The position numbers and the translations under genes are program-made. DNA of 37,684 nt. It comes from Flavobacteriia bacterium. GTDB taxonomy: Bacteria; Bacteroidota; Bacteroidia; Flavobacteriales_D; Crocinitomicaceae. The notes beneath the pieces are model-generated. The model was not told the DNA's origin and made no database searches. It saw only the letters and a program-made list of their open reading frames with translations. The stretch spans positions 1 to 37,684 of the forward strand of contig CANGHE010000002.1 in the NCBI GenBank assembly GCA_947453545.1, given 5' to 3'. Of the stretch, positions 3,089 to 26,029 are shown piece by piece. Position 1 is the stretch's first letter. Each line of letters opens with the position of its first letter.

Positions 3089-3139
3089 GAAATTTAAATT
3101 TGATTTATGATGTAATTAACGAATAATTACGAACAAAAA

Positions 3140-3167
3140 AAAGATGTTTAACAGGTTAAACATCTTT
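3140..3167 (-). terminator. Hairpin terminator at end of the biosynthetic operon
   Basis: AAAGATGTTTAACagGTTAAACATCTTT followed by T-run on the minus strand. Confidence 0.85.
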
Positions 3168-3190: not shown

Positions 3191-3355
3191 TTAGCTAATA
3201 TAACAACTTGAACCGTCGTTGTGAGAGGTAGACCATGAACCAGCTTCGGTATTAATTACTGTTTCAATAGTTAATTTAGGTGCTACCCAAATTTGTTCAG
3301 CAGAGTTGTTTGTTTCTTGTATCATATTTACTTTGTTTTTCAATGAATAATCCAT
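3191..3355 (-). CDS. Putative RiPP (lasso-like) precursor peptide, 54 aa (44 aa if the inner ATG at 3325 is used)
   Basis: Hand translation: MDYSLKNKVNMIQETNNSAEQIWVAPKLTIETVINTEAGSWSTSHNDGSSCYIS*. AAAGGGA lies upstream of ATG at 3355. WVAPKL resembles the lasso leader YxxPxL motif. Overlaps the 3' end of the AsnB-like gene and is followed by a terminator. Confidence 0.6.
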   Translation of the reverse strand: MDYSLKNKVNMIQETNNSAEQIWVAPKLTIETVINTEAGSWSTSHNDGSSCYIS

Positions 3356-5177
3356 AACTAATCCCTTTAATTAATATGGTATCACAATCTTTTTGTAACT
3401 GAAGATTTGGTGATTTATTAATTTTAGCTAAAATTTCTCTCAGTTTATCAATATTAATAATATGACAAACTGCTGAATTTTCCTCAAATCTAGTAATTAT
3501 TTTATTAATATTTACATAATTTTCTTTAATAAATAATTGAACATCTGATGCTTGTTTTCCTCTGAGTTTATTATTTCTTACATTATCAGGTAAAATACCT
3601 TTCATACTTTCGCGAATGATATAGCGATTATAAAACAAATGATCAGGAAGTGAGAGACAAAAGTTTGTTAACTTTAAATCTCTAGTAGGGTCTACAATAT
3701 TTAAATCATTACGGTATCCGTATTCTTGCCAAACACTACTTACATTTGTGTTCTCAGGACCTATTAATATTAGTCTTTTATCAAAATTGGAAATATTTTT
3801 TGTTTTATGTTGTTGATTATTAGATTCTAGTAATATAGAGTCATTAAATAATTCTTTATTAAAGCAAGAATATTTATTCTGATTTTCTTGTTGAGTATTG
3901 ATGCTATTCGTATTCTTTTTTTTACTTGAATTTAGAATAAATTGTTTTATATATTTTATTTTAGTTTGTAGTTTGATATCTTTTCGTTGAAGTTTTTCAA
4001 GCAGAGTTAAATTATTTAGAGATTCATTCCAAGAGATTGTAGCATTACCAGCAAAACCACCAAACAACGTTTTTATTCCCATTCTATTCGCATTAGAGAG
4101 AATTTCTTGAATCCAATATGTATTACCAGGTGTACCAGGTGGAGCACAATGATTTTCAATATAGCTTTCAATTCCATTTACTAAAGAGCTTTCACTTCCA
4201 TTAACAAAAAAATGTTCGATATTTCCACTGAATTCGGCTGTAGATTTTGAGTATTCTGTTTCGTCACCAAAGTGATGTGATAGTGTTAAACTACTTGAGT
4301 CATATAATGGTACGGAGGTAAATGAGATTAAACTTTGATTTATTTTTTTTAATTCTTTTGCAACTAATGCCGTAACTGAACCTGAATCTAATCCTCCGCT
4401 AAGCATACTACCTAACTTTCCAGTGCTGTGCATTCTCACTTTAACAGCATTTTCATAAAGTTCTAAAAAATGATCGATATAATCTTGGTTGTTTTTATAT
4501 CTTATAGGATCAGGTAAAGAAAAGGAAAAATATTTTTTGTAAGTTACTTCTCTATTTCTTAGTATTAAACAGTGTCCTCTTTCTAATTGAAAAATATGTT
4601 TATAAAGTGTTTTATTCCCTTCATTTGTTGTATTGAATTGATTACTTAACAGTCTAGATTCGTCAATTTCTGTATTATTAGTTGTGTTAAGAATACCTTT
4701 TAAACGTGAGGAGAATACAAAATCATTCTCGTTTTGGGAATAATAAATACCTGTTAAACCAAATTGATCTCGTGCAATAAATAATTCTTTTTTTTCATCA
4801 TTCCAAATAGCAAATGCCCAATCTCCGTGAATATAATTTACACAATTAGTATTCCATTTTTGATATGCTTTTAAAATTAAGATATTATTGGGTGTTTCAT
4901 CAAGAAGAGTAGTTGATAAGTCAAGTAATTTAAATAGTTCCTTTCTATTATCAAGTCTTGCATTCGCAGAAATTGTTAGTTTATCTAATGTATATATTGG
5001 TGATTCATATTTGGCCTCTGGTGTATAAACTGAATGGTAATTACCAAGATAGATAGATTCATTATTCCAGTGCCTAAATTTATCGAAATGGGGAGGTTGG
5101 TTACTAACTTTAAGATGGTCAGTGTTGTAACTATTTGAATTAGTTTCAAATTTATAATTTCCGAAAATTAAACTCAT
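3297..5177 (-). CDS. Asparagine synthetase B-like ATP-dependent amide ligase (lasso-cyclase-like, no N-terminal Cys2)
   Basis: N-terminus MSLIFG rather than MCGI; glutaminase-like fold GDWAFAIWNDEKKELFIARDQFGLTGIYY; PP-loop GSMLSGGLDSGSVTALVA. Confidence 0.85.
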   Translation of the reverse strand: MSLIFGNYKFETNSNSYNTDHLKVSNQPPHFDKFRHWNNESIYLGNYHSVYTPEAKYESPIYTLDKLTISANARLDNRKELFKLLDLSTTLLDETPNNILILKAYQKWNTNCVNYIHGDWAFAIWNDEKKELFIARDQFGLTGIYYSQNENDFVFSSRLKGILNTTNNTEIDESRLLSNQFNTTNEGNKTLYKHIFQLERGHCLILRNREVTYKKYFSFSLPDPIRYKNNQDYIDHFLELYENAVKVRMHSTGKLGSMLSGGLDSGSVTALVAKELKKINQSLISFTSVPLYDSSSLTLSHHFGDETEYSKSTAEFSGNIEHFFVNGSESSLVNGIESYIENHCAPPGTPGNTYWIQEILSNANRMGIKTLFGGFAGNATISWNESLNNLTLLEKLQRKDIKLQTKIKYIKQFILNSSKKKNTNSINTQQENQNKYSCFNKELFNDSILLESNNQQHKTKNISNFDKRLILIGPENTNVSSVWQEYGYRNDLNIVDPTRDLKLTNFCLSLPDHLFYNRYIIRESMKGILPDNVRNNKLRGKQASDVQLFIKENYVNINKIITRFEENSAVCHIINIDKLREILAKINKSPNLQLQKDCDTILIKGISYGLFIEKQSKYDTRNKQLC

Positions 5178-7627
5178 TGTACTATTTCTTTAGTAATGTT
5201 TAGAAATTCACTTTCCATTTTTTCAATGAAAACTGTATTATTTGAAAGTTTTTCATGTTTATTTTCACCAGCTAACTGTTTGTGAGTGAAATTGAAAGAA
5301 ACTAATTGAATAGTTGAGCAATATTTTTTCCAAAATTGTAATTGTACTTCTTTTTTTTTGTCAAAAGCAAATAAATATGTGGGTACTTCACTATTAGTTA
5401 GATTAACAGAATGAAGAATACGTTGTTGTGCAGTGGTATAATGTTTAGTAAAATTATTTTTAATTTTATTTTTAAGCTTTCTAACCCAAGATTGTTTGGA
5501 AGGGGTGTAGTCTAGAATTACATTTGCAAGTATATTTTTATTGAATTGTGCTTTTAAATTTGCTGCAATTTCATGACTAAAAATAGTCCCAGATAATACG
5601 CCAAAAAATATAATTGGTCTTGTTTCATTTAAGAATGAGTTCATTATCTCTTCATTAACTTCCTTAAAATTTTGTTTTCCTTTGTTCCATGAGTTGTAAT
5701 TGGGGTATGAGATTACTTTAACTTCAAATTGTTTTGATATACGATGTATTAATTTTTCATGTCCGTCTCTTAATCCGCATAGCCATGGAAAAAAATAGAT
5801 AACAGGTTTATCTGAAAAGTCAACCTTATTTTTATGTTCTTTGATTGTTTTTATTTTATCTATAACATAAGAAGGAGTCATTTCTTTGTTGATGAAATCA
5901 CTTGGGAAATGAATATTAAATTCTTGTTCAATGTCTACCAAAAAATTTAATAAATCAATTGAATTTGCTGCTGTATCAGCCCAGGTTATGTCTGTTGAAT
6001 AGGTGTTGTTTCCAGTATATCTAGACCAGATGTTCTTAATATTTTCTTCTATTGTATGTGATGTAGTTATATTTGTTTGTTCTAAATTATAATTTTCATT
6101 ATCAATTAATTTTAGTGTATTAAAATCCAACTTGTAATTGGAAAGTAATGGAATTTCATCAATAAAATAATAGTAAGAGGGAACCATAAACTGAGGTAAT
6201 ATGGACTGTATTTCTTGTTGAATTATTGATGTCTCTTGCTTTGTTTGAATGTATGCGACAATTTTAAATTGTTGGTTTATTTCTCGATGTAATATGGCAA
6301 CATTTTCAACTCCATGAATTCTTAAAATTGCTGCTCTAATTTCATCAATTTCAATACGATGACCGTTAATTTTAATTTGTTTGTCTTTTCTTCCAATGAA
6401 TTCCAATAGTCCATTTTCTAGTACTTTACCTATATCTCCAGTTTTGAATTCCCTACTTCCATCAGGGTAGGTAGTGTAATACTGTTTGGTAAGTTCCGCG
6501 TCATTCCAATACCCTAAAGACAGGTATTTACTTCTAACAAATATTTCACCAATTTCTCCCATTCCAATGATGTTTTGAGAAGAATTTCTAATTGTCATAT
6601 CGCGGTCTTCAATTGGATATCCAACTGGTACTAAATTACTTTCTACAACTGTTTGTTTATTGAGAAGCCAATGTCTAAAAAGAGTCGCATTTTCTGTAGA
6701 ACCTATCCCTACATATAAGTTACAAGTATCACTAAAATTTGTTTTATATAGTTCAAAATCAGAACGAAAAATTCGATCTCCAGCTAAATAGATTATTCTA
6801 ACTTCAGGTAAAAATAGTTTTTTATGAACCAGAAATAGTGTTCTAAAAATGGTTGGAATTGCATGAAATATACTTATCTTGTTATCAAGTAGATACGTGT
6901 TTAATGAACTTATAGAATATTTTTTAATATTGGTTAAATACAAGGTTGCTCCAATTAATAAAGTTCCAAAAGTATCTCGTATTGATCCATTTACAGATGG
7001 TGAATAACAATATGAAACTCGATCATCAGAACGTAATTGAATGTAATTTATATATTGCCAAACATCATGTAGATGATTACGTTGATTTTGATACACACCC
7101 TTAGGTTTTCCAGTACTCCCTGAAGTATAAATGATATAAGAAATTGATTTTGATGTAGGTGTTGTAACAATCTTTTTGTCTTGTAACAAATTATTTATTA
7201 ATTTATCTTCATCTAGAACAAATAAGGGGATAATATAGGAAGATTCTATTTGTTTTTCAAACTCTTTATTTGTTATAATTAATTGTACTTCAGCATGTTG
7301 AATTATATCTAGATTTCTTTGAATTGGAAAGTTTGCATCTAGTGGTACGTATGGAATACCAAGTGCTAAACATGCAAATTTGGCGATAATAAAATCTGGC
7401 TCAATATCCAACCAAATAGCAATTGGTTTTTGTGAGTGGATTTGTTTTTTTAGTTCAATAGATTTCTGAGTTATTTCTTTTAATAACTCAGTGTAACTAA
7501 TTTTTTTTCCATTAAATTCTATTGCTGTTTTATATGGAAAACGAGTTGCAATTTTTTGAAGGTGTTCTATAATTGGAACATCAATCCATTCTTTTGGTAA
7601 TAAAGTAAAAGGATTTTCTATAACCAT
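5174..7627 (-). CDS. NRPS-like protein: adenylation domain, carrier domain, thioesterase-like C-terminus
   Basis: YIIYTSGSTGKPKGV, GEIGEIFVRSKYLSLGYW, FKTGDIGKVLENGLLEFIGRKDKQIKINGHRIE; carrier-like NSIDLL; TE-like FFGVLSGTIFSHEIAANL. Confidence 0.88.
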   Translation of the reverse strand: MVIENPFTLLPKEWIDVPIIEHLQKIATRFPYKTAIEFNGKKISYTELLKEITQKSIELKKQIHSQKPIAIWLDIEPDFIIAKFACLALGIPYVPLDANFPIQRNLDIIQHAEVQLIITNKEFEKQIESSYIIPLFVLDEDKLINNLLQDKKIVTTPTSKSISYIIYTSGSTGKPKGVYQNQRNHLHDVWQYINYIQLRSDDRVSYCYSPSVNGSIRDTFGTLLIGATLYLTNIKKYSISSLNTYLLDNKISIFHAIPTIFRTLFLVHKKLFLPEVRIIYLAGDRIFRSDFELYKTNFSDTCNLYVGIGSTENATLFRHWLLNKQTVVESNLVPVGYPIEDRDMTIRNSSQNIIGMGEIGEIFVRSKYLSLGYWNDAELTKQYYTTYPDGSREFKTGDIGKVLENGLLEFIGRKDKQIKINGHRIEIDEIRAAILRIHGVENVAILHREINQQFKIVAYIQTKQETSIIQQEIQSILPQFMVPSYYYFIDEIPLLSNYKLDFNTLKLIDNENYNLEQTNITTSHTIEENIKNIWSRYTGNNTYSTDITWADTAANSIDLLNFLVDIEQEFNIHFPSDFINKEMTPSYVIDKIKTIKEHKNKVDFSDKPVIYFFPWLCGLRDGHEKLIHRISKQFEVKVISYPNYNSWNKGKQNFKEVNEEIMNSFLNETRPIIFFGVLSGTIFSHEIAANLKAQFNKNILANVILDYTPSKQSWVRKLKNKIKNNFTKHYTTAQQRILHSVNLTNSEVPTYLFAFDKKKEVQLQFWKKYCSTIQLVSFNFTHKQLAGENKHEKLSNNTVFIEKMESEFLNITKEIVQ

Positions 7628-7628
7628 T

Positions 7629-8558
7629 TTAGTTCATCTTTTGTATCGTGTTTATCCAATTCGAAATAATTTCATCTTCTGTAGCAACAGGTAATACGCA
7701 TCCACAAAGTATCAAATCTGCATCATTTATATATTCATTAACAAGTTGTTGAATTTCAATAGTATCTTGTGTAGTTTCAATTTTACTAGCAGGAATACCG
7801 ATGATTTTGGGGTAGTTTGTAGTTAACGAATTTGTTGTACTTTCTTCATAATGAATACAAAGGAAGGGAATTTTTTCTTTGATGTTTAAATATATGGATT
7901 CTCCATGAACATGAAAGATTACTGATTGAACTAAATTAGAGGCAAATTCTAAACATGATTCATCAATTGATTTTCCTATTGATGAATATATTTCAGGTGT
8001 TAATTGAGAAATTTGACATGATTGAGTTGCATAATATATTCCTTCAATCCCCAATTCAACATAACGTTGGATTATTTGATTTGTATTTAGCAAAAGTGTA
8101 TTTAGTACTTCTTTAATTAGTTCTGGATTTTCATTTAAATGCTTTAAAAAAAGGTCTAAACCACAAAGTTGAATTGCTTGTGTAACAGGGGAGAAAATGG
8201 TTGCATATACAGGGACATCGTGTATTTCTTTGCAAACAATTTCAGCTGCTTTTAATTGTTCTAAAAGTGGTGGTGGTGTACCTTCAAATAACTGAATTTT
8301 TTTCCAATCAATAAGTTCATTAATGAGTGGACACTCTACAAATCTTCGACCTAAAAAATCACCACTATAGTAATCTTTTAATCCATAACAGGTTGCTATC
8401 CATGTTCCTGCTGGAGTTATTTTAAGAAAGTTTGGTTTGAACTTGTTATAAAATTCAATAGTTTCAGCAGCTAATATTTCTCCAGTTTGGTCAGAAATTG
8501 GATGATGTTTCCAAAAAGATATATTCATATTCTTGTGGTTAAAATTTTTCAATGGCAC
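7629..8558 (-). CDS. Uroporphyrinogen decarboxylase (URO-D) superfamily protein, possibly methyltransferase/decarboxylase-like
   Basis: FLKITPAGTWIATCYG, ATIFSPVTQAIQLCG, VIFHVHGES; URO-D-like length and pattern. Confidence 0.7.
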   Translation of the reverse strand: MPLKNFNHKNMNISFWKHHPISDQTGEILAAETIEFYNKFKPNFLKITPAGTWIATCYGLKDYYSGDFLGRRFVECPLINELIDWKKIQLFEGTPPPLLEQLKAAEIVCKEIHDVPVYATIFSPVTQAIQLCGLDLFLKHLNENPELIKEVLNTLLLNTNQIIQRYVELGIEGIYYATQSCQISQLTPEIYSSIGKSIDESCLEFASNLVQSVIFHVHGESIYLNIKEKIPFLCIHYEESTTNSLTTNYPKIIGIPASKIETTQDTIEIQQLVNEYINDADLILCGCVLPVATEDEIISNWINTIQKMN

Positions 8559-11262: not shown

Positions 11263-11868
11263 ATGAAGGCGAAATACAATAGAATATCATCAATCGACCA
11301 GTCACTTGCTAGACAAACAGCCAATTCATCTAAATTTGATAAGGTATACAATGACAAAATCAGTGGTTGTGTATCATTCTTTGAACGCAAAGAAGCTAAA
11401 AAATTGGTTGCTGAAATTGATAATATTTCAGAAATTCATATAAATGAGCTTTCCAGAATTGGGAGAGATATAATTGATGTTTTGACTGTTTGTAAATTTT
11501 TTAATGATAGAAATGTAAATTTATTTATTGAAAATATAGGAATGTATTCTATGATTAACGGTAAACCAAATCCTACTTTTTCTATGATTGTATCGGTGCT
11601 TTCAAATGTGAGTTGCATGGAACGTGAATCTATGTTGTTTCGTCAAAAACAAGGCATTGAGATTGCTCGTCTTTCTAACAAGTACAAGGGGCGAGCTAAT
11701 GGAGCAACCATGACCGAATTACAAGTGCTTGATAAATACAAAGTGGTGGTGCGTGAATTGAATGCTGGTCAATCATTAAGAAGAAGTGCTTTACTAGGTC
11801 AATGTAGTTTGGGTACTGCTCAACGTATTCAGAAGATATTATTAAATAAAAAATCCCTAGTTGCTTAA
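11263..11868 (+). CDS. Small serine recombinase (resolvase/invertase family)
   Basis: YNRISSIDQSLARQ catalytic N-terminus; INELSRIGRD; C-terminal HTH-like segment. Confidence 0.85.
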   Translation: MKAKYNRISSIDQSLARQTANSSKFDKVYNDKISGCVSFFERKEAKKLVAEIDNISEIHINELSRIGRDIIDVLTVCKFFNDRNVNLFIENIGMYSMINGKPNPTFSMIVSVLSNVSCMERESMLFRQKQGIEIARLSNKYKGRANGATMTELQVLDKYKVVVRELNAGQSLRRSALLGQCSLGTAQRIQKILLNKKSLVA

Positions 11869-11877
11869 CTAGGGATT
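11852..11877. terminator. Hairpin between convergent genes, overlapping the resolvase stop codon
   Basis: AATCCCTAGTTgcttAACTAGGGATT. Confidence 0.75.
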
Positions 11878-11894
11878 AAAATTATCATATTCTA

Positions 11895-12203
11895 CTATTT
11901 ACCTTCGATATAATCAAGAATTCTAATAAGCTCATCAGAATACACATCCTCCACCAGTTTAATCAAGTCACCATTCTTCTTGATAAATGATATAACATAG
12001 GTGTCTATCCATTTCAACTCAATCTTCACAAAAGCTTTGTGCTTAATTCCATTACATTTAAACATTACACCTCCAGCATATTCTTTAGATTCTGGTAGAG
12101 TTGTAAAATTAGTAGCACCAATAGCTGGTAAAAACCACTTGTCACCATTTTTTATTTGAGCGATTATTGTAGATGCAATCTCTTTGTTTGTTATCATTTC
12201 CAT
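11895..12203 (-). CDS. Hypothetical protein
   Basis: 102-aa ORF in element accessory region. Confidence 0.5.
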   Translation of the reverse strand: MEMITNKEIASTIIAQIKNGDKWFLPAIGATNFTTLPESKEYAGGVMFKCNGIKHKAFVKIELKWIDTYVISFIKKNGDLIKLVEDVYSDELIRILDYIEGK

Positions 12204-12391
12204 TCTATTATCTTTTTTGAATACTTAATATTATCACTACTGAATCTTGACTCACACTACCTCTTTGTTTTAGTTTAAAAATAGCTTGGCTTTCACTATT
12301 ACTATACAAATGAAGTGTTGTTTGAGTTTGGGTGCTGTTTACACGATACCTTACTATATAGCTTTCTAATTGCATAATTGTATGTTTAGGA

Positions 12392-12718
12392 TTAATCTAG
12401 ACGACCCCAACTTCTAATGAAAGAGCATTCATCATAAGCTTCTTCTACATAAGCATTAAAACGAATACCAGTAACAGTAGATGATTTAAACAAATTAAGT
12501 AAGTCTTGAAAAGTGTTCGCTGACTTTATACCTTCAGAAGTCCAAACTGATTGGATACTGAACGATTTACCAAATGATTCTTGGTTTAATACTTCATGAC
12601 CGAAAGCATTCAGTGTTTTGTAAGGACAAATTGAGTATTTAGATTGGATACTTAAAGTAACACCTTTAAGGTAGTTTTTTAACTCTTTTATACCGTTTTT
12701 AAATTCTGATGCTTTCAT
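12392..12718 (-). CDS. Hypothetical protein under the shared element promoter
   Basis: 108-aa ORF directly downstream of the conserved promoter. Confidence 0.6.
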   Translation of the reverse strand: MKASEFKNGIKELKNYLKGVTLSIQSKYSICPYKTLNAFGHEVLNQESFGKSFSIQSVWTSEGIKSANTFQDLLNLFKSSTVTGIRFNAYVEEAYDECSFIRSWGRLD

Positions 12719-12779
12719 AATGTTATCTATTACTTATTTTGTTACAACAAAGATAAGCAATAGATAACTACAAAACAAG
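12719..12779 (-). promoter_or_regulatory. Promoter with shared element-specific architecture
   Basis: Minus strand CTTG-N20-TATCTTTG ... AATAGATAAC next to ATG; further GTTATCTATT copies overlap the spacer and lie upstream. Confidence 0.65.
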
Positions 12780-12830
12780 TAATAGATAACTTTATTTAAA
12801 ATAATTACCTATTAGATAACAATTCCATAA

Positions 12831-14126
12831 CTAAAGAACTTCACATTTTATTATTGATATTTTTTCAAGATTATCAATCTTGTTAGATTTTCTTACTTCG
12901 TTTATTTCAAAAGTAACTTGATACGTATCTTTTAGATTGTAATCACCAACAAAAGATTTTAATGAATCAGAAAATTTACCTAATGAAATTTCGTTTTTTA
13001 ATGATTCAAACTTAAATGAATAATTAGTAACATCAAGTGCCTTAAAAATACCTTTTTCAATTAGAGTGTTCTTATCCCCAGATTCTAAAATATTTAAATT
13101 ATTTAATATCTTTTTTGTTTTTTTTATATCAAGTACTTCTGATAAATTTTTCTTATTAGCTGGATTAGCATACTGAACACACAAAGTTAAATCATTTGAA
13201 TTTATTCCTTTAATTAAATTCAAATATGATTGTAAGACTTCATTATCAAGGCTATTTTTAATTTCTTTTAACTTATTTGCATCTAAACTTGCATTAAGAA
13301 TTTCGAAAAGTTTAGTTAGAATCTTTTCAGAATTAGTCTCTGTGTCGAATAAATCAAATTCGTTAGTTATTGGTTTTAAAAACACACTATAAGAAGCAGC
13401 TTTAGTATAAATTAATTCTGTCTCTGAATACCCAATAATCCTATCTAACTCACCTTTTTTTCTTCTTTTTTTAATACTTTTTGTTTTCTTATCAAAAAGA
13501 TTTATTGCTATAGACCTACTTAATTTACTATAGTCAGTTAATATCTCCCCTAAAATAGAACTCTTTATTTTACCAAATCCGACATTAGAATTTTTAGATG
13601 ATTTAAAATGAAGGTTGATTAATTCAGTTTCATTTTTCTCTGCCTCATCTAAAATATTAAAAATTGAAGTTTCTATTTCTTTTAATTTATTAGCTTCTTT
13701 TAGATTAAAGGTAGTTTTTATATTATCTAATTTTTTTGATTCATCTTCATCAAAGTAAATATTGTTTTTGGGTAAATACTCGTAAGGTAAATTTTTAGGT
13801 GATACAACCTTACAACAAACATCTATACCTTCAATATTTTTATCAATTAAAAAAATCAAATCTTTTTTAGGGTTGTTAATCAAGCTAAAATGGCTTATTT
13901 TGCCATTTATATAATCTGCTAAAGATTTAATTTCGACTTCATAGACTAACCACCGATTTACATTATTATTTAATTCGACCCAATCAAAAATAAAAGGAGA
14001 ACCTTCATCGTTGCAATAAACCCCCATTAATGAACCTTCAAAATACAACAAATCACCAACTTTATTCAATTTAATTGGAAAATTTGGTATATCTAAACCG
14101 ATTATATGTCTTAATGATTTACTCAA
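12831..14126 (-). CDS. Hypothetical protein, pair partner of 14119-14565
   Basis: 431-aa ORF, overlaps the upstream gene by 8 nt. Confidence 0.65.
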   Translation of the reverse strand: MSKSLRHIIGLDIPNFPIKLNKVGDLLYFEGSLMGVYCNDEGSPFIFDWVELNNNVNRWLVYEVEIKSLADYINGKISHFSLINNPKKDLIFLIDKNIEGIDVCCKVVSPKNLPYEYLPKNNIYFDEDESKKLDNIKTTFNLKEANKLKEIETSIFNILDEAEKNETELINLHFKSSKNSNVGFGKIKSSILGEILTDYSKLSRSIAINLFDKKTKSIKKRRKKGELDRIIGYSETELIYTKAASYSVFLKPITNEFDLFDTETNSEKILTKLFEILNASLDANKLKEIKNSLDNEVLQSYLNLIKGINSNDLTLCVQYANPANKKNLSEVLDIKKTKKILNNLNILESGDKNTLIEKGIFKALDVTNYSFKFESLKNEISLGKFSDSLKSFVGDYNLKDTYQVTFEINEVRKSNKIDNLEKISIIKCEVL

Positions 14127-14565
14127 TTTTAATATCTTTTATGTATTCGAATATAAATTGGTTGTTTTCATTTTCAAATTCATGAAAATTAAAATGAGAA
14201 GAGGATTTACTAGGTTTGTCTGCCATTCCATCGCTTTCAATTAACTTCAATTTACCTATCCCATTCCCAAAAACTTCAACTAGTAAAGGCTTTCTCTTGA
14301 CTAATTTAATGTATTTTTTTTCAGCTTTTACCAAATCTGTAAACATTGATAATGCAAAGCCATCGCATTTTGATTTGCAATCATCTTCAGAATCAATTCT
14401 ATTTGGTGAAATTAAAAAAGGAGGTAAATGATTATTTATATGAGTCAAATCACTAAATAACCACCTATATACATGGTTATTGATTGACTCAAGATTATCC
14501 ATATTTGGACAATCACAACCCAATTCTTCATGTTTTAAATGATATTTAAATTTTGTGTTACTCAA
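14119..14565 (-). CDS. Hypothetical protein, pair partner of 12831-14126
   Basis: 148-aa ORF, translationally overlapping downstream gene. Confidence 0.6.
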   Translation of the reverse strand: MSNTKFKYHLKHEELGCDCPNMDNLESINNHVYRWLFSDLTHINNHLPPFLISPNRIDSEDDCKSKCDGFALSMFTDLVKAEKKYIKLVKRKPLLVEVFGNGIGKLKLIESDGMADKPSKSSSHFNFHEFENENNQFIFEYIKDIKIE

Positions 14566-14628
14566 TATTAATTATTTTATTATAAATACGTGTTAAGCTA
14601 TCTTTTGTTCCAAATGTAATGAATAAAA

Positions 14629-17600
14629 TCAATTAATATTTAATACATACTCTTCAACATCACCCATATTACTAGCTACAACCATATCGCTACCAATAGC
14701 ATTGAAGTGTTTAACACCACATTTTATTTTCGATGTTTCACTACCTCTTAATCCAAACTCAACGTTTGTAGTTCCTTTTGATTCTACTACAAAGAACAAC
14801 TTCTCTTCAGTATCATCTTTCCAGAGTATTGCCCAATCTGGATTATAAGTACCTAATGGTGTCTCAATTTTGAACCAGCTTGGTAGTTTGGAATAAACAG
14901 AAATGTTTTTACTATGCTCAAACTCTCGAGCTAAACTTGACTCTACTGCTGAATCATAGACTACATACTGGTATGGTGATTTTTCACTCTTCTCAAGATT
15001 ACTTCTTAAATAACCAAATAACTCTTGGTTCTCGAACATTTCTTGACTATAGTATTCAGCATCACCAATCTTTTTGTACTGGATACCATCAATGATATGC
15101 ATCCTCATCTGTTCGTTGATTATGTCTATACAACCTTCTATAAACTTCTGCGGATTGGCTTTAAAATATTTTAGCTTTTGAGTACCAGTAAGTATCTTAA
15201 CAATCGACTTGCGTGTTAATTGAGTTTCATTTTGCAAGTAACTCACTATGTCTGGTAGTCGCTCAACATCTTCATGAATGGTCTGAACTACTTTGGTGTT
15301 TGCTAGTTCTTCAGCATCAACACCAGCTTCTGTAATATGTATTGATGCCTTTGAATAGATTAGCTTACCTCTAACCACTTTAAGTTTTTCATCCAATGCA
15401 TGAATACATTTCTGTATCAATTTGTCTGAATCAAAATCTACAGAAAACGTGGTTTTAAATTTAACCTTCTCCCACAATTCTTTGAACTCTGGGCTATCTA
15501 AAACTCTTCTGTTAACTGATACTACCTCTTTGTCTTTTTGATTCTTTATTTCGAGTTTACCAGCTGTTTCTTTAATCTTTTTGATGATTTGATTAACAAC
15601 ATGTGGTTGCTCCTCAAGACCCTCTGGTAGATTTACAGTGTCATCTCTCAATGCTACTCTTAAAGAATCTTGTACTTTACCTTTGATATCGATATAGCCT
15701 TGTTCTTTCAAGTGATTGTATATTTCTTTTGATTTTTCATGACCAAAATATTCTATATCATCTTCATCAATGTTAACTACGATGTCGCCAAAACTGTGGT
15801 CTTCTATTATTCCGAATTTGATACCAGTATCTTTTTCAACTTCTTTCTGGAAGTTATCTACAAATTCAACATACGATTCTGTAGCCATAACAGTAAGTGT
15901 GTTTACTTCATGACCATAGATTCTTTCACCATCTTGATTCACACATAAACGCAATCCACGACCAATCTCTTGTCTACGTCTTGTTTCAGAACCTCCAGCT
16001 TCTTTAAGTGTGCAAATTTGAAATACATTTGGATTATCCCAACCCTCTTTCAATGCTGAATGCGAAAAGATGAATCTCAATTTAGAATCGAAACTCAATA
16101 ACATTTCTTTATCTCGCATGATTAGGTTATAGGTATCCTCATCTGCATTCGTACTACCATTCGTATCTTTATAGAACTCAAACTTATCTTTCTTGTTAGA
16201 AGCTTTAGACTTCTTATCTATCGAAAAATATCCATTGTGAACTTCTGGTGCTGTACTATCTAAATCTTGTATCCCTTGAAAAAGTATACGATATTTAGGT
16301 TTGTTGATTAGCTTTTTATATTCTTTTTCAAATATTTCTGCATACTCACCATTTGCTTGATTTCCATCTTCATCATACATTCGATATTTTGCTACAGAAT
16401 CAATGAAGAATAAACTCAAAACCTTAATGCCTTGAGGATTTAATATCAATTCTTTATTCAAATGTTCTTCAATGGTTTTACTTATTAAAGCTGTTTTAAT
16501 TTGGTTCTCATCAATAGCACCAATAGCTTCACCTAATTTGATTACATCTTCACGACCAGTAAAATCAATATACTCTTCACCATCTACGGCATATATTTCT
16601 TTTATAATGAATCCTTCGTATTCTGTTCTATCTGTGATTTGTTCTAAATCATAATTAGGTTTGATTGGTATAACTTTTCGAGATATAGAACCATTACTAA
16701 AAATATCTACTTCCACTTTAGCTGTAGGAAAACCTTTGCTAACTTTTACTTCTACTAATCTGATATAGGCATGACTATTTACGCTCTCTGTTTGAACTGA
16801 TGCTACCTCGATTTGCTTCACCAATTTCTTTTCATAAGCATCTACGGCATCCAATTTATACATAAGATTAACCTTCTCTTTATGGGTAGCTGAATACCTA
16901 ACGATAGCCAAAGGATTAAGGTTTTTAACAGCCTTTTTCCTTAACTCGGTACTCATTGTTGTTTGTGGTTCATCTATGATGATAAATGGTCTTGTATTCT
17001 TAATTAGGTCTAATGGTTTATATCCTAACGAATCATTGTACCTATGGATGATGTTTACTGATTTAGTAACATCTTCTGGCTTCTCGAAACTTTTGGCGAA
17101 TGCATCAATATTGATGACCATGATTTCTAATCTATCATTGGTAGCAAAATCTCTTACCTCGTTCAATTTACTACTATCATACACAAAGAAATTGTAGTTC
17201 ACATTATCATTCAACCCTCTCAAGTGCTCTTGAGTAATTTGCAATGATTTGTAAACCCCTTCTTTTATTGGTATCGATGGAACAACAATGATGTGTTTGG
17301 AAAAACCGTACTTCATATACATATCCAGTATCGTTCTTAAATACACGTATGTCTTACCAGTACCAGTTTCCATTTCAATAGTAAAATCTAGATTATTTCT
17401 ATCGATATCATCTTTGGTAGATGGTTTTAATCCATTGCTTAATTGAATATGTTGAACGTTCTCTATCAACTTACCCTCTGTAAGTAACAATCTATTACCA
17501 TATCCAACTTCGGTGAACTCAAAATTTGCTTGTTTTGCGATGTATTCGGGTGAGTAAACTGTAAAGTTTGACTCACACTTATCTTGACCCTTAAAAATGT

Positions 17601-17685
17601 CTACAATCGCTTCTATGGCTTCTTGCTGATATCCTAGTTCGCTATTAAATTGTAACTTCATACTATCTCTTTTTGTATTCACCAA
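14629..17685 (-). CDS. res: Type III restriction enzyme Res subunit (SF2 helicase plus PD-(D/E)XK endonuclease)
   Basis: FTIEMETGTGKTYVYLRTI; FIIIDEPQTT; RRRQEIGRGLRLCVN; C-terminal GTYNPDWAILWKDD..LFFVVESKGTTN. Confidence 0.92.
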   Translation of the reverse strand: MVNTKRDSMKLQFNSELGYQQEAIEAIVDIFKGQDKCESNFTVYSPEYIAKQANFEFTEVGYGNRLLLTEGKLIENVQHIQLSNGLKPSTKDDIDRNNLDFTIEMETGTGKTYVYLRTILDMYMKYGFSKHIIVVPSIPIKEGVYKSLQITQEHLRGLNDNVNYNFFVYDSSKLNEVRDFATNDRLEIMVINIDAFAKSFEKPEDVTKSVNIIHRYNDSLGYKPLDLIKNTRPFIIIDEPQTTMSTELRKKAVKNLNPLAIVRYSATHKEKVNLMYKLDAVDAYEKKLVKQIEVASVQTESVNSHAYIRLVEVKVSKGFPTAKVEVDIFSNGSISRKVIPIKPNYDLEQITDRTEYEGFIIKEIYAVDGEEYIDFTGREDVIKLGEAIGAIDENQIKTALISKTIEEHLNKELILNPQGIKVLSLFFIDSVAKYRMYDEDGNQANGEYAEIFEKEYKKLINKPKYRILFQGIQDLDSTAPEVHNGYFSIDKKSKASNKKDKFEFYKDTNGSTNADEDTYNLIMRDKEMLLSFDSKLRFIFSHSALKEGWDNPNVFQICTLKEAGGSETRRRQEIGRGLRLCVNQDGERIYGHEVNTLTVMATESYVEFVDNFQKEVEKDTGIKFGIIEDHSFGDIVVNIDEDDIEYFGHEKSKEIYNHLKEQGYIDIKGKVQDSLRVALRDDTVNLPEGLEEQPHVVNQIIKKIKETAGKLEIKNQKDKEVVSVNRRVLDSPEFKELWEKVKFKTTFSVDFDSDKLIQKCIHALDEKLKVVRGKLIYSKASIHITEAGVDAEELANTKVVQTIHEDVERLPDIVSYLQNETQLTRKSIVKILTGTQKLKYFKANPQKFIEGCIDIINEQMRMHIIDGIQYKKIGDAEYYSQEMFENQELFGYLRSNLEKSEKSPYQYVVYDSAVESSLAREFEHSKNISVYSKLPSWFKIETPLGTYNPDWAILWKDDTEEKLFFVVESKGTTNVEFGLRGSETSKIKCGVKHFNAIGSDMVVASNMGDVEEYVLNIN

Positions 17686-17696
17686 GGTGAATTTAT

Positions 17697-17807
17697 AATG
17701 TTTCTTAATTTACCCCCAATGTTTCTTAACCTTAATAAAAACATTGTAAATCAGAACTTTTAATAATGGTTTTAAACATTTGTTAATTCGCTTTCAATGT
17801 TTCTTAA
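17697..17807. repeat. Short repeats AATGTTTCTTAA between res and AlbA_2 genes
   Basis: Copies at 17697-17708, 17718-17729 (21-bp pitch) and 17796-17807. Confidence 0.7.
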
Positions 17808-19251
17808 ATACATAAAGTGCATTTACATCACGCTGTTTTTCACTTAATCGAATTAATACACCATCCTCAATAAACTTATTCAAATAACCTCTAATTGTAT
17901 TGATATTTATATTAGTGAACTTCACAAGCTCATCGATGGTTGCTTTATGATTTAAAAACAAATAATGAAAAATGTTACGTTGTGTTTCGTTATATACTTT
18001 CCAATTTTTTTCAATCTTCTCTATCACTGAATCATGAATAGTTTTAGAATGACCACTGATTTTATTTCTCAATATCAAATACACTGTGCTATTACCTTCT
18101 TTGTACTCTGGTATAGATAACATCGATTTCTCCATCGATTCATAAATTCTAGATACACCTTCATTCAATTGACGAACATACCCCATGTCTTCCAAAACTC
18201 TTGCTACACGAGGATTTCTAGCAAATCGTTCCGTTTTGATATTGTCAATCGTTACTTGTGCTGGTAGCGGACCACTATTACTTATCTCTAATCTATCATC
18301 AAAATGCTTGATGTAAATAGCATTACCATGAACGTTATAAGAACGGTGACATAAAGCATTTACAATTCCCTCCAACCAAGCTTCTTCTGGGTACTCTGGT
18401 ACTTTATTAAATCTTCCAGTTTCCATATCTAGGAAATAGTAATCCTTAAATGAAGCCTTTAGAAACGCTTTAAGATGACTGATTAATCGTGGAATGTTAT
18501 TTTCAAAACGTTCATCTTTCACCACATTGTGGTTAACACCCGTCAAGGCTTCTGTACCCTCATATCTTATATATCTTACTGAAGCTGAAGGAATATACTT
18601 TTCTGGGTCTTTAGAGAATAGTAAAGCTGAAGCATTTTTAAACTGATAAACACCGCCTTTTTTAGTAGCCAAATATTTTAACACCAACAAGTCAAGAATA
18701 TCTCCTTTGTAGTTTACCTTTTCTTTGTATTCATTAAGTAAATCATTGTCAAAATCTTCTATTTCAAAATCTTTTACCGTTTCATCTTCAAAACGTCTGA
18801 TAGATTTATCATACTCTAATTTCTTGATTCTATCTAGGTCTAACAAACGGTTCGAATCATGTACTCTCAAATAGACTTTTTCATTTTCTCTTGTACGGAA
18901 AATACGTTCTAATTCTTGTTCTACATGAAATAGAAATACTAGTTTACCATCTATAGTAACCTCTTCCAATTCAATGTTACATGCTGGATGAATGAAATTA
19001 AAGACCAATTTCCTATAGTCATCCAATTTACCTCCAAGTGAATTAAGGTCTTCAATTTCACCCGAATCTGAAACTCCAAAAGCCAATGTTCCTCCATCAG
19101 CATTCAACATACCGATTAATTCTTCAGCTATTTTTATGGGCTTAATGTCCTTTTCTCCAAGTCCTTTACGTTCAAAGTATTGATTCTCTACTTGTGTTTG
19201 TAGATATTCTCTTGTTACTATTGTATTTATTTTTGAAACTGAATCACTCAT
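17794..19251 (-). CDS. AlbA_2 (Schlafen-like) / GHKL-ATPase-like regulator with C-terminal winged helix
   Basis: YFERKGLGEKDIKPIKIAEELIGMLNADGGTLAFGVSDSGEI; GIVNALCHRSYNVHGNAIYIKHFDDRLEISNSGPLP; C-terminal wHTH-like. Confidence 0.88.
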   Translation of the reverse strand: MSDSVSKINTIVTREYLQTQVENQYFERKGLGEKDIKPIKIAEELIGMLNADGGTLAFGVSDSGEIEDLNSLGGKLDDYRKLVFNFIHPACNIELEEVTIDGKLVFLFHVEQELERIFRTRENEKVYLRVHDSNRLLDLDRIKKLEYDKSIRRFEDETVKDFEIEDFDNDLLNEYKEKVNYKGDILDLLVLKYLATKKGGVYQFKNASALLFSKDPEKYIPSASVRYIRYEGTEALTGVNHNVVKDERFENNIPRLISHLKAFLKASFKDYYFLDMETGRFNKVPEYPEEAWLEGIVNALCHRSYNVHGNAIYIKHFDDRLEISNSGPLPAQVTIDNIKTERFARNPRVARVLEDMGYVRQLNEGVSRIYESMEKSMLSIPEYKEGNSTVYLILRNKISGHSKTIHDSVIEKIEKNWKVYNETQRNIFHYLFLNHKATIDELVKFTNININTIRGYLNKFIEDGVLIRLSEKQRDVNALYVFKKH

Positions 19252-19256
19252 TTCTT

Positions 19257-19366
19257 AACCTTGCTTAATTATGGATAAACCTTGCTTAATTTTTAAAACC
19301 CTTTGATTTTAAAGCTTTTTACATATTGTGGATAACCTTGCTTAATTGTGAATAAACCTTGCTTAA
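19257..19366. repeat. Short repeats CCTTGCTTAAT between AlbA_2 and mod genes
   Basis: Copies at 19259, 19280, 19336 and 19357; two pairs each with 21-bp pitch. Confidence 0.8.
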
Positions 19367-21321
19367 ATACTTTTCACCTCCGTAATACCAAATCTTTTTA
19401 ATATCTGAACAGAGTTTGTTTTTTCTACATCTGTGAAACCAGTGTCTTTGAAAATAACCCTACATGCTTCTGGTTGTAGTTCTTGTTTCCATGCTCCAAC
19501 ACCTTCAGCCACTTTACTTGTAATACCATCAGCTAAACAGATAAACAAAGCCCCAACACCAACGTTGAATACCTTTTTGCCTTCTATTAATTTTTCTTCA
19601 ATTGGCAGTGTTAAATCAAGACCATATTTTAACAATATTTCAAATAGGACATCTTCTTCTGTTCTATCAGTTTTGATGTTGTCTTGTGCATCAAATAAAC
19701 TATTATCTAACTCATCTGGATTACCATCCCAACCTTTAACATTTGAACTATCTAGTTTAAATACTTTGAAACCAAGGTCTAAATCTTTAGCTTTTTCTTT
19801 ATTTTCTAGAATAATATTTATTCTAGCTCTTCTTATTCTTTCTTTTCCTATTTCAGAAAGTTTAGTTGGCTTATTTAAACCTATTAAAAAATCGATAGCA
19901 TTTTGTTTTGTCTTTTTTTCATCATCTGTCATACCAGAAACTATTTCAATTTTTTCTGGTAACTGAACACAAATAAACTTTCTAGAACCTCCATCTTCTA
20001 AATTTAATTCCATTACAGAATTAGCTAATGTTCCACTACCAGAGAAAAAATCTAAAATCAATGCATTTTTATCATCTATAAACTGTATTAAATATTTCAA
20101 TAAACTCACTGGTTTGGGAAAGTCAAAAACCTTTGCACCCATTAAATCAACTAAATCGGAACCAGCATTTTCATTTGTCCCAACGTTAACTTTACTGTTT
20201 ATTAAATTTGGTGGAACTTCAGCATCATACTCAAGTTTCTCGTAAGAAGGGCTAAATCTAATCGTTGGTATTTTAATTATTGTTCCATTATTAATTTCAT
20301 TATCAAGATATGATTGACTCCATTTGAATTTAGCTTTCAATTTAACTTGCTTAACAAATACACCATCTTTAACTTCTGTGTCCTCAATTAATTCTACATC
20401 ATAACTATCTGTACCGTACATACCTTTTGCTATAACTCCATTTTGGATGCTTGTTAATACGATATCAGAAGGAAAAATCAGCTCTGAAATCTTATTAGTT
20501 TGATTTAATAAACCATTTGAACTTTGAGACTCTTTCTTAATACCAGTAAATTTCAAATCATCTTTTTTCTTTTGAAAACATATTACATACTCAATTATTT
20601 TTTTACTTTTCTTTGATAAATTAGCTGGTGTTTCTGTTTTTGCCCAACTAAAAACATCTATAAAGTTTTCAGAACCGAATACTTCCTTTCCAATTTTAAT
20701 TAAATTTTCAAGTTCATTATCATCAATATTAATAAATATTAACCCGTCTTCTCTCAATAAGTTTCTAGCTAAAATTAACCTAGGATATATCATATTCAAC
20801 CAATTGGAATGATATCTTCCATCGGTTTCAGTGTTTGATGTTACTTTTTTTCCTTCACTATCAATTTGCCCAGTAATTTGCTGGTAGTTTTTAAGATTGT
20901 CTTTATAATTATCTTTGTACACAAAATCTTTCCCAGTGTTGTATGGAGGGTCAATACTGATAACTTTGATTTTTCCAGCATAGCTTTTCTGAAGTAATTT
21001 CAATACTTCCAAGTTATCACCTTCGATATACAAGTTTTCTGTAGTGTCCCAATTAACACTTTCATCTTTAGCTGGTCTTAAAGTACCAGTGCTTGGTTTA
21101 TGAGCTTCTCTTCTTGCTTGTGTTTTACCAGCCCATGTGAATCTATAATATTCTTCACCCTCTTCAAGTTCATTCCCTAAAACCTCTTGAAGTACAGCAA
21201 AATCAATCTTACCTTCAGTTACTATCTCTGGAAACAATTCTTTTAATCGTTGAATGTTTTCATAAACTAAATCCATGCTTTGTGTTAATTGGTCACCTTG
21301 GTTAATTTTTTCGATGCTCAT
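19363..21321 (-). CDS. mod: Type III-type DNA methyltransferase Mod subunit
   Basis: NLYIEGDNLEVLKLLQKSY..KVISIDPPYNTGKDFVY; LILDFFSGSGTLANSV. Confidence 0.93.
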   Translation of the reverse strand: MSIEKINQGDQLTQSMDLVYENIQRLKELFPEIVTEGKIDFAVLQEVLGNELEEGEEYYRFTWAGKTQARREAHKPSTGTLRPAKDESVNWDTTENLYIEGDNLEVLKLLQKSYAGKIKVISIDPPYNTGKDFVYKDNYKDNLKNYQQITGQIDSEGKKVTSNTETDGRYHSNWLNMIYPRLILARNLLREDGLIFINIDDNELENLIKIGKEVFGSENFIDVFSWAKTETPANLSKKSKKIIEYVICFQKKKDDLKFTGIKKESQSSNGLLNQTNKISELIFPSDIVLTSIQNGVIAKGMYGTDSYDVELIEDTEVKDGVFVKQVKLKAKFKWSQSYLDNEINNGTIIKIPTIRFSPSYEKLEYDAEVPPNLINSKVNVGTNENAGSDLVDLMGAKVFDFPKPVSLLKYLIQFIDDKNALILDFFSGSGTLANSVMELNLEDGGSRKFICVQLPEKIEIVSGMTDDEKKTKQNAIDFLIGLNKPTKLSEIGKERIRRARINIILENKEKAKDLDLGFKVFKLDSSNVKGWDGNPDELDNSLFDAQDNIKTDRTEEDVLFEILLKYGLDLTLPIEEKLIEGKKVFNVGVGALFICLADGITSKVAEGVGAWKQELQPEACRVIFKDTGFTDVEKTNSVQILKRFGITEVKSI

Positions 21322-22088
21322 TCTTGTCCTAATTTATTTTTAATACTTTCTATCTCTTTTCTATGCTTTTGAATCTCAATATTCAGATTCAACTTGGTGT
21401 TGAATTGGCTTTCTTTTTTTATCTGGTTAGTTAGCCTAATAACTTCTTTATCAAGCTTATTTATTTGCTCCAGCATCTGCATATCATCTTCAGTACGTGT
21501 GTGATTTCTAACTAAAGTAGCACCCGTTACCAATGCTGTTTGATAGTTTACAATTGCTTTGATGTAACTCTTGTAGACAGTCTCTAAATTTGTTTTATCC
21601 AGTGCTGTAAAGTTTAAACCATCAAACAAAGCACTAACCAAGTCATCTTTATACAACTTTGTTAGGATTGGTGTTGATATAAGTTTTTCAATGGTTCTTT
21701 TGGTGGTGTCGTTTTGATTAATGCGTTTATCACACGTGTTTATCATAAAATTATCCTCATCCTCAATAATCAATAGGATAGGATAAGGGATATATTTCTG
21801 AAATAATTGAACACACTTGTCACCAAATTGTTGCAAACCCAAACCTTTCAATGTACACACCATTACTTGAATTTCTTCATAGTTGTACATATCATTAACT
21901 TCAGCTGATATATTAGCATTGGCTGGCTTAATACTAGCTAACCAGTTCATGCTCTGTATTTCGTAATTCAATACATTTTTATCCGTTGTAGTTAAATCAA
22001 AACTACTCAAAAAGAATGCTTTCGTAATCTTAACTTCATTAAGACTACGAGCTGGAATATTAAATATTTTATTGTAATTCAACCCCAT
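21318..22088 (-). CDS. DUF4391 family protein
   Basis: Family-like N-terminal pattern and position between Mod and helicase. Confidence 0.7.
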   Translation of the reverse strand: MGLNYNKIFNIPARSLNEVKITKAFFLSSFDLTTTDKNVLNYEIQSMNWLASIKPANANISAEVNDMYNYEEIQVMVCTLKGLGLQQFGDKCVQLFQKYIPYPILLIIEDEDNFMINTCDKRINQNDTTKRTIEKLISTPILTKLYKDDLVSALFDGLNFTALDKTNLETVYKSYIKAIVNYQTALVTGATLVRNHTRTEDDMQMLEQINKLDKEVIRLTNQIKKESQFNTKLNLNIEIQKHRKEIESIKNKLGQE

Positions 22089-25000
22089 TTACTTAATGAT
22101 TAGGTAGCTGATTAATTCAAGATTGGATTGTCTTTCAATTGAATCTTTAACCAATACTGTTCCACCAGCTTTTGCTAGAGAACTCAAACCAACTTCTTCT
22201 TGAACACCAACAATTTCACTGATGGCATTTTTAAGTAGCTTGGTGTATACCTCCATTTTTTTATTCCCTTTGGTTTCTTTGTCAAATTCTGCCACTAACT
22301 CTGGTAGAACCGAATCATTACCCATGCACAATTTTCTGAAGTAATCTAAAGCCAATTTGGTTTGCGAAGCTTTCACAATTTCTTCACCATCATTGCTTAT
22401 ATACACCAAAAAGAATGGATATAAGAGGTTATTTTTAAGTAACCCAGCTAAATCATTACTAGAGTCTTTTAAGCAGTATATAACACCTTCTTTTACTGTA
22501 TCAAGATTTGATTTTACAACAGCATAAGAAGCTACTGGTATATCTTTCAATTCCATTAGCTCTTCATCACTACTTTGTTCTATATCAACCTTAAAATCAT
22601 TGAATGTTAAATCAGTTATGGATATATTACCTTGAACATCTTCTAAATCTAATACCTTATCTTGAAGCTGAATTAATTGTCTTTTACGATAATCTAAATC
22701 TTGCATTTCACTACTATCTTGAGAAATGATATTGTCTTCACCAGTAGCGGAAACATCTAGCATCACCATTCTACCTTTAACTCTGGCAATTAAATCAATG
22801 AAGCTATCCAACTCCATATTTGGAAAGAAGTTAACCAATTGGATTTTGTCATTTATAGAACCAATTCTATCTATACGACCAAAACGTTGAATGATACGAA
22901 CTGGATTCCAATGAATATCATAGTTTACTAGGTAATCACAGTCTTGCAAATTCTGCCCTTCAGAAATACAATCAGTACAGAACAAGAAATCAATCTCATG
23001 GTGTTCATCTGGATATATCTCATCACGTTTCTTTGACCTTGGTGAAAAATGAGTTAAAATCGTACTCAATTCTGCACGAGTATTTGGCATGTTGGTCTTG
23101 TTGTTACCAGAACCAGTTACCAAAGCACTATTGAGTCCGTATTTAGTTTTAATCCACCCATGAAGCTCCTTATACAAGTAATTTGCAGTATCTGCGAAGG
23201 CAGTAAATACAATCACTTTTTTATTATTTGGATTGATTGGTTTATTAATTTTTTCATCAATCAACCTCTTTAATTCCATTAATTTAGCATCTCTTGATTC
23301 ATCAATCAGTTTAATTGAATTCATCAACTTCACCAATATTGACTTGTCTAACTTTAAATCTTGTTTCCAGCGAATCGTGTCAATATCTTGAATAAGCACT
23401 CTTGTTTTACCCCCAACCAATAAATCTTCTAATGTACTATCATCAATATCTATGTCAGTAATGTTTGTTTCAACATCTAAAACACCATTTTTATGTTGCT
23501 CAATTTGTTTTAAATTCTCGTCAACAAAATCCACCAACTTTCCAAGTGTCAACCTAAATGAATGGATTGAGCTTTCAAGTCGTTTTAAAAGGTTTACACG
23601 CATTAAGTATATCAAACTTTGCTCACGGTCTACTTGCTTAAAAACACCTCCAGTATGAGTCTTGATATCGTATTTCTCTTCGTAATACTCTCTCTTTTCA
23701 GAGCGAACATAACCCAGCGGTGTATATGAAGCCAGAGTCAATAAACTTATCTCATCATAAATCTGACCAATATCATGGAACTTTTTCTCTGTATCAATGT
23801 CTGGTGTTAGTGTGATAGGTTTTAATCGGATTGGAAAGTTACCTATGTCTGCTGTATCGTAGTATTTATTAATATGCTTTCTAGAGCGAGCAATGGTTAA
23901 CATATCCAATATTCTGAAGTACTGACCATCTAAATTCTCCATCAACAAATTAACATCCAGATTATTTGGGTCATTGTTCTTATACCAATTAGTAAACCTT
24001 CTTTGAGCATCTCTCATTACTTGAGTGATACTATCGATACCATGTGGTGCAAAATAATTATCATTACCTTCCGAAATGAACGCTATCTGATTTTTTAAAT
24101 CATTCATTTTGTTATTTACTGGTGTCGCTGACAACATCAACACTTTGGTACGGATACTTGATTTAATCACATCATTCATCAATCTTTTATAACGAGTCAT
24201 TCTCTCACTCGTATTTGGATTGTTTCTGAAATTGTGTGATTCATCGATTACCACTAAATCATAAGCACCCCAGTTAATGGTTTCTAAATCCATGTCACCA
24301 GACTTACCTCGTTCTCTGGATAAGTCAGTATGGTTTAAAACATCATATCGAAGCCTATCTTGTGATAAAATATTTCTCCTATCATTTAGGGTGTAAATCG
24401 TCCAGTTATCTCTTAATTTTTTTGGTGCTAAAACCAAAACATTTTTATTCAGTAAGTCATAGTATTTGATTACTGCAACAGCTTCAAAGGTCTTACCAAG
24501 CCCAACAGAATCTGCAATGATACATCCACCAAACTTCTCGATTTTTTCGATTGCACCAATAACTGCATCTTTTTGAAAGTTATACAACAATGACCAAATC
24601 TTGGTGCTCTTTAAACCAATCTTTTCAAGTTTTTCATCTGCTCTTTCATTGATAGACGAGTAACTAAATATCTCTTTTACACTGTACTTGTATATCGCTT
24701 CGGCTGTTATGCTTTTAGTACCTTTTTCTAATCTCTCAACGATGTTATCATTGATTTGTAGGGTACTATTGTTCCAATACTGATTAAAGTATCCAAGGTA
24801 TTGATTATTGGTATCATCAAACGCATTGATAAATATTGGAAAGTCAGACTTTAGTTCACCAAGACTAACTGAATCAAAATCCATTGGTGTTAAAGCATAA
24901 CAAGATGTTAGACCAGCATTCTCAACCAATAAAAGATTTTGATTACCAACAGCACCCTTTCTGAATTCAATTTTATCCTCAATCAAACCAAGCACTTGGT

Positions 25001-25256: not shown

Positions 25257-25453
25257 TAGCTTTTTACGTTTTCTCGTAATAAATCACGAACACTTACATT
25301 CAATACATTAGCTATCTCAAAAAGAATAGGTAAGCTGGGTTGTCTTCTGTTACCAACATAACTGTTAACCATGTTAAATGATTTTCCAATCTGCTCTGCT
25401 AACCAAGTCTGCTTGACTTTCTTCTCATCCAAAACCTCTTTTATTCTATTCAT
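25256..25453 (-). CDS. XRE-family HTH regulator
   Basis: KVKQTWLAEQIGKSFNMVNSYVGNRRQPSLPILFEIANVLNVSVRDLL. Confidence 0.88.
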   Translation of the reverse strand: MNRIKEVLDEKKVKQTWLAEQIGKSFNMVNSYVGNRRQPSLPILFEIANVLNVSVRDLLRENVKS

Positions 25454-26027: not shown

Positions 26028-26029
26028 TA

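Follow-up and report, generated by a model that had tools for sequence, protein, structure and literature searches.

A lasso-type precursor and a paeninodin-clade cyclase share a conserved operon with an adenylation-carrier-thioesterase fusion in a Flavobacteriia genome

A four-gene operon on the minus strand (3191-8558) of a 37,684-nucleotide stretch of Flavobacteriia DNA, here called the window, encodes an MtaA/URO-D-like protein, a fused adenylation-carrier-thioesterase (A-CP-TE) protein, an AsnB-like protein and a short precursor peptide. The window corresponds to contig C2 in a genome bin of 2.87 Mb, which comprises 289 contigs and is estimated to be 74% complete. At the level of sequence, the identity of the precursor, its RRE-type WxxPxL leader, the placement of the cyclase in the paeninodin clade and the conservation of the operon including the precursor are all documented. 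We consider it fairly probable that the operon represents a variant of the paeninodin lasso type, with a leader that is cleaved off in trans and a core that the A-CP-TE protein probably acylates in the way of NosI/NosJ/NosK in nosiheptide; the ring, its threading and the acylation are what we infer. We would like to emphasize that the operon is described here as lasso-type and not as an established lasso cluster, because in the simplest reading both an acid at core positions 7-9 and local B1 and B2 proteins are lacking, and as a variant rather than an ordinary member, because B1 and B2 are missing and extra enzymes are present.

A first-pass annotation had pointed to a lasso-type precursor at this locus, and this proposal holds in view of the WxxPxL leader, the Thr at W+13 and the paeninodin-clade AsnB encoded in the same operon. 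The precursor ORF (3191-3355, minus strand) encodes 54 aa from the ATG at 3355 (MDYSLKNKVNMIQETNNSAEQIWVAPKLTIETVINTEAGSWSTSHNDGSSCYIS); its coordinates, length and sequence agree with those given earlier, as does its overlap with the end of the AsnB gene, which amounts to 59 nt (AsnB stop 3297, first ATG of the ORF 3355). The inner ATG at 3325 gives a peptide of 44 aa with the Trp at residue 13, and since its N-terminal length then equals that of the orthologue in another genome, G026 (METQKNDNAKKEW...), this ATG is probably the true start. A short ORF that overlaps AsnB and has no match in Pfam or NCBIfam could be a chance reading frame at the AsnB end, but the probability of this appears negligible. 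A profile built from ten other precursors, with the window sequence left out, retrieved the ORF with E=1.6e-8, whereas none of the others among the 314 window ORFs reached significance (0.12 for the next-best), indicating that it is real and not due to chance, and the pattern W..P.[LIVM].{7}T in ORFs of 25-70 aa is expected only 0.03 times per Markov-shuffled window. The syntenic precursor orthologue in G026 refutes a chance frame in practice. The end of the operon is marked by a terminator-like AU-rich hairpin plus U8 (3135-3167, minus strand). The terminator previously noted 3' of the ORF corresponds to a perfect hairpin of 12 bp with eight U after it (3140-3167; MFE -10.7 kcal/mol, z = -2.9), which a stock terminator scan did not detect because it is AU-rich.

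The leader contains the motif WVAPKL at residues 23-28 (3272-3289, minus strand), the predicted binding site of the B1/RRE protein. As the suggested YxxPxL-type leader implied, this motif fits the pattern [Y/W]xxPx[L/V/I/F/A], which has been demonstrated structurally (PMC13381572). The W and P are invariant in the precursor alignments, as is Thr36 (3248-3250, minus strand), which is predicted to occupy position -2 and lies exactly 13 residues after the Trp, a spacing as in paeninodin-like leaders. The structure of a paeninodin-type leader places these residues at W-15, P-12 and L-10 (PMC13381572), and Thr(-2) is a rule for lasso leaders, with Ile/Val as rare exceptions (PMC10368454). Because the two registers agree, the core is predicted to be AGSWSTSHNDGSSCYIS (3194-3244, minus strand; A1, D10, C14, C-terminal S17), in which Ala38 is residue 1 and Asp47, the sole acidic residue of the core, is residue 10. 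The first-pass annotation had preferred a core with Gly at position 1 and Asp at position 9, adding as a caveat that Thr at -2 would start the core at Ala and make the Asp residue 10. The caveat describes the canonical register and is supported by the published leader register and by the relatives, all of which are consistent with core +1 two residues after the conserved Thr. The Gly1-Asp9 register is less likely and was set aside as first choice, since Glu would then occupy -2 and Thr -3, as seen in no relative. The alternative candidate core to AGSWSTSHNDGSSCYIS is GSWSTSHNDGSSCYIS, and an Asp at position 9 requires cleavage between Ala38 and Gly39.

In the canonical register, an acid occurs at core position 7-9 in all ten precursors compared, a feature that the window precursor lacks. 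Known lasso rings comprise 7-9 residues (PMC5067487; PMC10368454). A ring closed between Ala1 and Asp10 would be one residue larger than any described, and a search for literature on lasso peptides with 10-membered rings gave no lead in titles or abstracts. The Asp at position 10 suggests either an unprecedented 10-residue ring, a shifted cleavage after Ala38 (G1-D9), or decay or loss of function, between which the sequence alone cannot decide.

The AsnB-like protein (3297-5177, minus strand; 626 aa), the predicted macrolactam cyclase (C protein), belongs by its motifs and by phylogeny to a paeninodin-type clade. The catalytic Cys2 of glutamine-dependent synthetases is absent, SGGLDS is retained, and the second motif reads GFAGNATISW, where usual synthetases carry GxGGDE or GADE. 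The same motif occurs in the lasso cyclase of Priestia aryabhattai and in an unannotated homologue from Paenibacillus cellulosilyticus. In a maximum-likelihood tree, the window, G026 and G657 cyclases group with those of paeninodin type from Priestia and Paenibacillus in a clade with support of 100/99; AsnB proteins of the exopolysaccharide type and the Bacteroidota lasso cyclases with GGDE lie outside it. The best plasmid matches of the protein likewise lie in lasso loci of Paenibacillus and Priestia, whose cyclases are 28-30% identical to it; both clusters are ordered C-A-kinase-B1-B2, and the precursor from Priestia carries a paeninodin-family annotation. The best NCBIfam model is that for lasso cyclases, NF033535, with a score of 267 bits that falls under the 525-bit cut-off; this cut-off does not discriminate here, because the cyclase of L027, which is a complete lasso cluster in this genus, also scores only 254 bits. 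Together, clade and model bear out the earlier view that an AsnB of lasso-cyclase type is encoded in the operon of the precursor. The AsnB genes of exopolysaccharide-type loci in the genus (L028), which keep Cys2 and the GADE/GGDE motifs, lie outside the cyclase clade and were set aside.

A profile search of 240 genomes of the family revealed one further such locus, G026:C39 (CAIUKX010000039.1), from an uncultured Flavobacteriales bacterium of another genus. Its four genes (310, 812, 616 and 43 aa) match those of the window in kind and order and lie on one strand, and the three enzymes share 45%, 48% and 41% identity with those of the window. The G026 precursor (METQKNDNAKKEWAAPAIIVETIDQTLAGVPGVTSDAACSVLS, which includes ...WAAPAIIVETIDQTLAGVPGVTSDAACSVLS) has Asp at canonical core position 9, and the core contains one Cys in both operons. 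The neighbouring genes differ, being serS and a nifU-like gene in G026 (by reading of translations) and DUF2400 and AAA-ATPase genes in the window, which argues that the four genes are the unit. No further copy of the four-gene operon was found in 399 order-level genomes. Apart from the G026 operon, an A-CP-TE alignment scan returned only ordinary adenylation enzymes that have no AsnB or URO-D relatives adjoining them, and a scan of the genome contigs with a single AsnB sequence gave no match. Conservation of the peptide beside homologous AsnB genes, on which the first-pass annotation had staked its proposal, is evident from the orthologous operon in G026 and from further AsnB-precursor pairs in G002, G657, G609 and the Firmicute paeninodin-type clusters.

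The operon could also be a decaying or strain-variable lasso locus that makes no product, having lost the partners of its precursor and cyclase genes while the stop codon of AsnB moved into the precursor gene and the Asp of the ring shifted to position 10. Such a history would account for the missing local B1 and B2, for the roughly 12 residues by which the window AsnB runs past the end of its orthologue and into the precursor, and for the different content downstream of hemB in a second contig of the bin, which has a 98% identical hemB end and another precursor. However, all four genes are intact and have the P-loop, the carrier Ser and the candidate thioesterase triad in common with G026 at 41-50% identity, which implies long selection, and the precursor is still recognisable; we regard decay as rather improbable.

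Members of the precursor family also occur elsewhere in the genome of the window (G000). A search with the window ORF identified a 43%-identical relative on contig C36, and further precursors include a 43-aa peptide near an AsnB gene on C32 and an incomplete peptide where C271 ends. Relatives are also present in the sister species G002, G008 and G009; the pattern W..P.[LI] and a Thr at W+13 are common to all family members aligned, and the precursor profile yielded few new lasso loci over 396 genomes of the phylum. The orphan precursor-like ORF on C36 (L003:16494-16643) lies directly 3' of a gene for a large protein with a secretion-tail-like C-terminus, and no cyclase was recognised on the stretch examined. 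The locus on C32 (L016:8261-12167) is a second lasso-type locus, with a GGDE-type AsnB, a family-28-like glycosyltransferase, a 182-aa protein and the precursor MNKELFTWEAPQLNIIDIQATLSGSSPMPNEATWCFPTSGAIG. Positions 1-307 of the window and contig C271 (L055) share a hemB end with 98% identity over 307 bp and then diverge, and the end of C271 encodes a different lasso-type precursor, NWEAPQIITLDVEITNSGVGPGSDAGGCEHT; this divergence after a shared hemB end suggests that the hemB-linked site may exchange lasso-type genes between strains. Two clusters without a cyclase, L038:7332-9750 (G008:C41) and L037:5798-7813 (G009:C87), encode, in this order, B1, an array of tandem precursors (six for G008 and three for G009), an HprK-like kinase and a lasso B2. 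Their cores are very short and hydrophobic (e.g., SLGGFFRMSP, SVFDFFRCS), with no acid at 7-9, so that they resemble linear phosphorylated peptides but have a lasso-type B2 peptidase.

Neither the RRE protein B1, the transglutaminase-like peptidase B2 nor an exporter is encoded in the window operon or in the G026 operon. This absence went unmentioned in the first-pass annotation, which was right about the precursor and the class of its partner enzyme and less so about the Gly1-Asp9 register. Contig C10 of the same genome encodes a B1 (75.9 bits to NF033536, cut-off 80) and a B2 (68.2 bits to NF033537, cut-off 33). The C10 locus (L009; G000:C10:20000-29410) also contains two HprK-like kinases, a sulfotransferase, an APS kinase, an FAD/NAD-binding flavoprotein and an ABC transporter, and neither a precursor nor a cyclase was found in the part of C10 examined. 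In the sister species L027 locus, B1, HprK, sulfotransferase, cyclase, precursor, B2 and transporter are all together, and G657 (99% complete) has a full lasso cluster and, on a different contig, a separate A-C pair with a cyclase of the window type, with one B2 gene above the cut-off. Given B1 and B2 on C10, and the distant A-C pair and single B2 gene in G657, it is plausible that the C10 proteins serve the window operon in trans; the lack of a B2 in G026 (94% complete, two models) counts against this. PqqD-like proteins on C71 and C6 were considered as alternative B1 proteins and rejected, as neither adjoins B2 or AsnB. The one on C71 (L010:5320-6839) has a long C-terminal tail and adjoins an HprK-like P-loop protein, glycosyltransferases and an ABC transporter, and may belong to another RiPP-type locus.

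The fused A-CP-TE protein (5174-7627, minus strand; 817 aa) was characterized by domain matches, fold and alignment, with a match to AMP-binding (2.4e-51) and a weak one to PP-binding (0.0013). Its A domain aligns well with amino-acid activating domains; both orthologues carry Asn for Asp235 and Arg at 239 (GrsA numbering), and the replacement of Asp235 in both makes an alpha-amino acid an unlikely substrate. The carrier Ser556 and the candidate triad Ser679-Asp706-His782 are conserved in the G026 orthologue. The C-terminal 220 residues have a thioesterase fold, with matches that include TesA, EntF, RifR and NosK (5v7o). Two structure models were built on two-sequence alignments and have mean pLDDT values of 71 and 67. 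The first gene of the operon (7629-8558, minus strand) encodes a URO-D/MtaA-fold protein of 309 aa from the GTG at 8558, with a probable start at the ATG at 8528. It matches PF01208 above the cut-off, its closest folds are MtaA and HemE, and it has a C-terminal CGC and, at the putative zinc site, HxH...C where MtaA has HxC. It may act in thiol or methyl transfer, or just as well in decarboxylation of the acyl unit. Searches of the literature recovered no paper that combines lasso peptides with uroporphyrinogen decarboxylase and no report of carrier-protein-based acylation of a lasso peptide. It should be noted that the acyl substrate, its acceptor and the role of the URO-D-like protein are guesses from the architecture. 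Acylation of the core on Cys by the A-CP-TE protein is a tentative preference, Cys being favored as the putative acceptor because the cores of both operons have one.

The A-CP-TE fusion, conserved beside cyclase and precursor, also fits a scenario in which the AsnB-like enzyme makes no threaded lasso and was recruited to form a different amide bond in a RiPP that contains Cys, such as one between the peptide and an acyl unit made by the A-CP-TE protein. Recruitment would explain both the absent B1 and B2 (including the genome of G026, without B2) and an ill-placed Asp as the sole acid at core position 10. We nevertheless consider it unlikely, since the leader retains the lasso RRE motif and Thr spacing, the G026 orthologue has its Asp at canonical position 9, and the cyclase clusters with paeninodin-type lasso cyclases. 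If the operon is the paeninodin-type variant that we favor, the leader would be bound and removed by the C10-encoded B1 and B2, with the cut after Glu37 and Thr36 at -2. AsnB would then adenylate Asp47 and join it to the Ala38 alpha-amine to give a 10-residue ring, or, if cleavage were shifted to before Gly39, a 9-residue ring. The A-CP-TE protein may activate a carboxylic acid, probably not an alpha-amino acid, hold it on its carrier domain and transfer the acyl group to the core, most likely to the Cys, in the NosI/NosJ/NosK manner, and the MtaA/URO-D-like protein could alter the acyl group or methylate a thiol. The fully specified version, a 10-residue Ala1-Asp10 lasso that is Cys-acylated by A-CP-TE and matured by B1 and B2 from another locus, seems doubtful as a complete account.

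A lasso ring-closing enzyme is paired here with enzymes not known from lasso pathways. Mining strategies that require B1 and B2 beside the cyclase and an acid at 7-9 would miss both the window operon and the G657 A-C pair. If the operon works as proposed, precursor-cyclase pairs can rely on leader peptidases encoded at a distance, carrier-bound acyl groups can be added to lasso peptides as they are to thiopeptides, and the size of lasso rings may exceed the 7-9 limit. Elsewhere in the window, positions 11263-30071 are likely a mobile defence island, in which two serine recombinases (11263-11868 and 28299-30071) flank a restriction-modification system of type III (14629-17685, 19363-21321) together with a helicase of the HKD/SNF2 type (22089-25256).

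Among known systems, the paeninodin-like lasso peptides of Firmicutes (C-A-K-B1-B2-D clusters) resemble the window operon in that C lies immediately upstream of A, and also have a leader of WxxPxL type whose Thr is at W+13, a GNxTISW-type cyclase motif and a C-terminal Ser in the precursor. Unlike these clusters, the window operon has URO-D-like and A-CP-TE genes in place of kinase, B1, B2 and transporter, the sole acid of its core is at 10 instead of 9, and the cyclase identity is only 28-30%. The linear polyphosphorylated peptides (LPP) of Bacillota have a similar lasso-like leader motif, which is read by a discrete RRE, and some genomes contain both kinds of pathway (PMC13381572); LPP clusters have no cyclase and a signal-peptidase-like leader peptidase, whereas the window operon has a cyclase and no peptidase. 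The URO-D-like protein resembles MtaA, a methylcobalamin:coenzyme M methyltransferase, in its fold (4ay8, E=1.1e-10) and by a weak central sequence match, but differs from it by HxH versus HxC at the putative zinc site, and no corrinoid protein gene was recognised near its gene. Proteins of the MtaA/URO-D family are TIM barrels with a thiol-binding zinc site of the form HxC...C. In nosiheptide biosynthesis, NosI, NosJ and NosK activate, carry, and release or transfer an indolic acid, and the LclJ/LclI/LclK set of lactocillin is convergent (PMC5585349). The window operon, known by domain and fold only, likewise places adenylation, carrier and alpha/beta-hydrolase domains in a RiPP operon, but with the three functions fused in one protein, beside a lasso-type cyclase and without thiopeptide enzymes.
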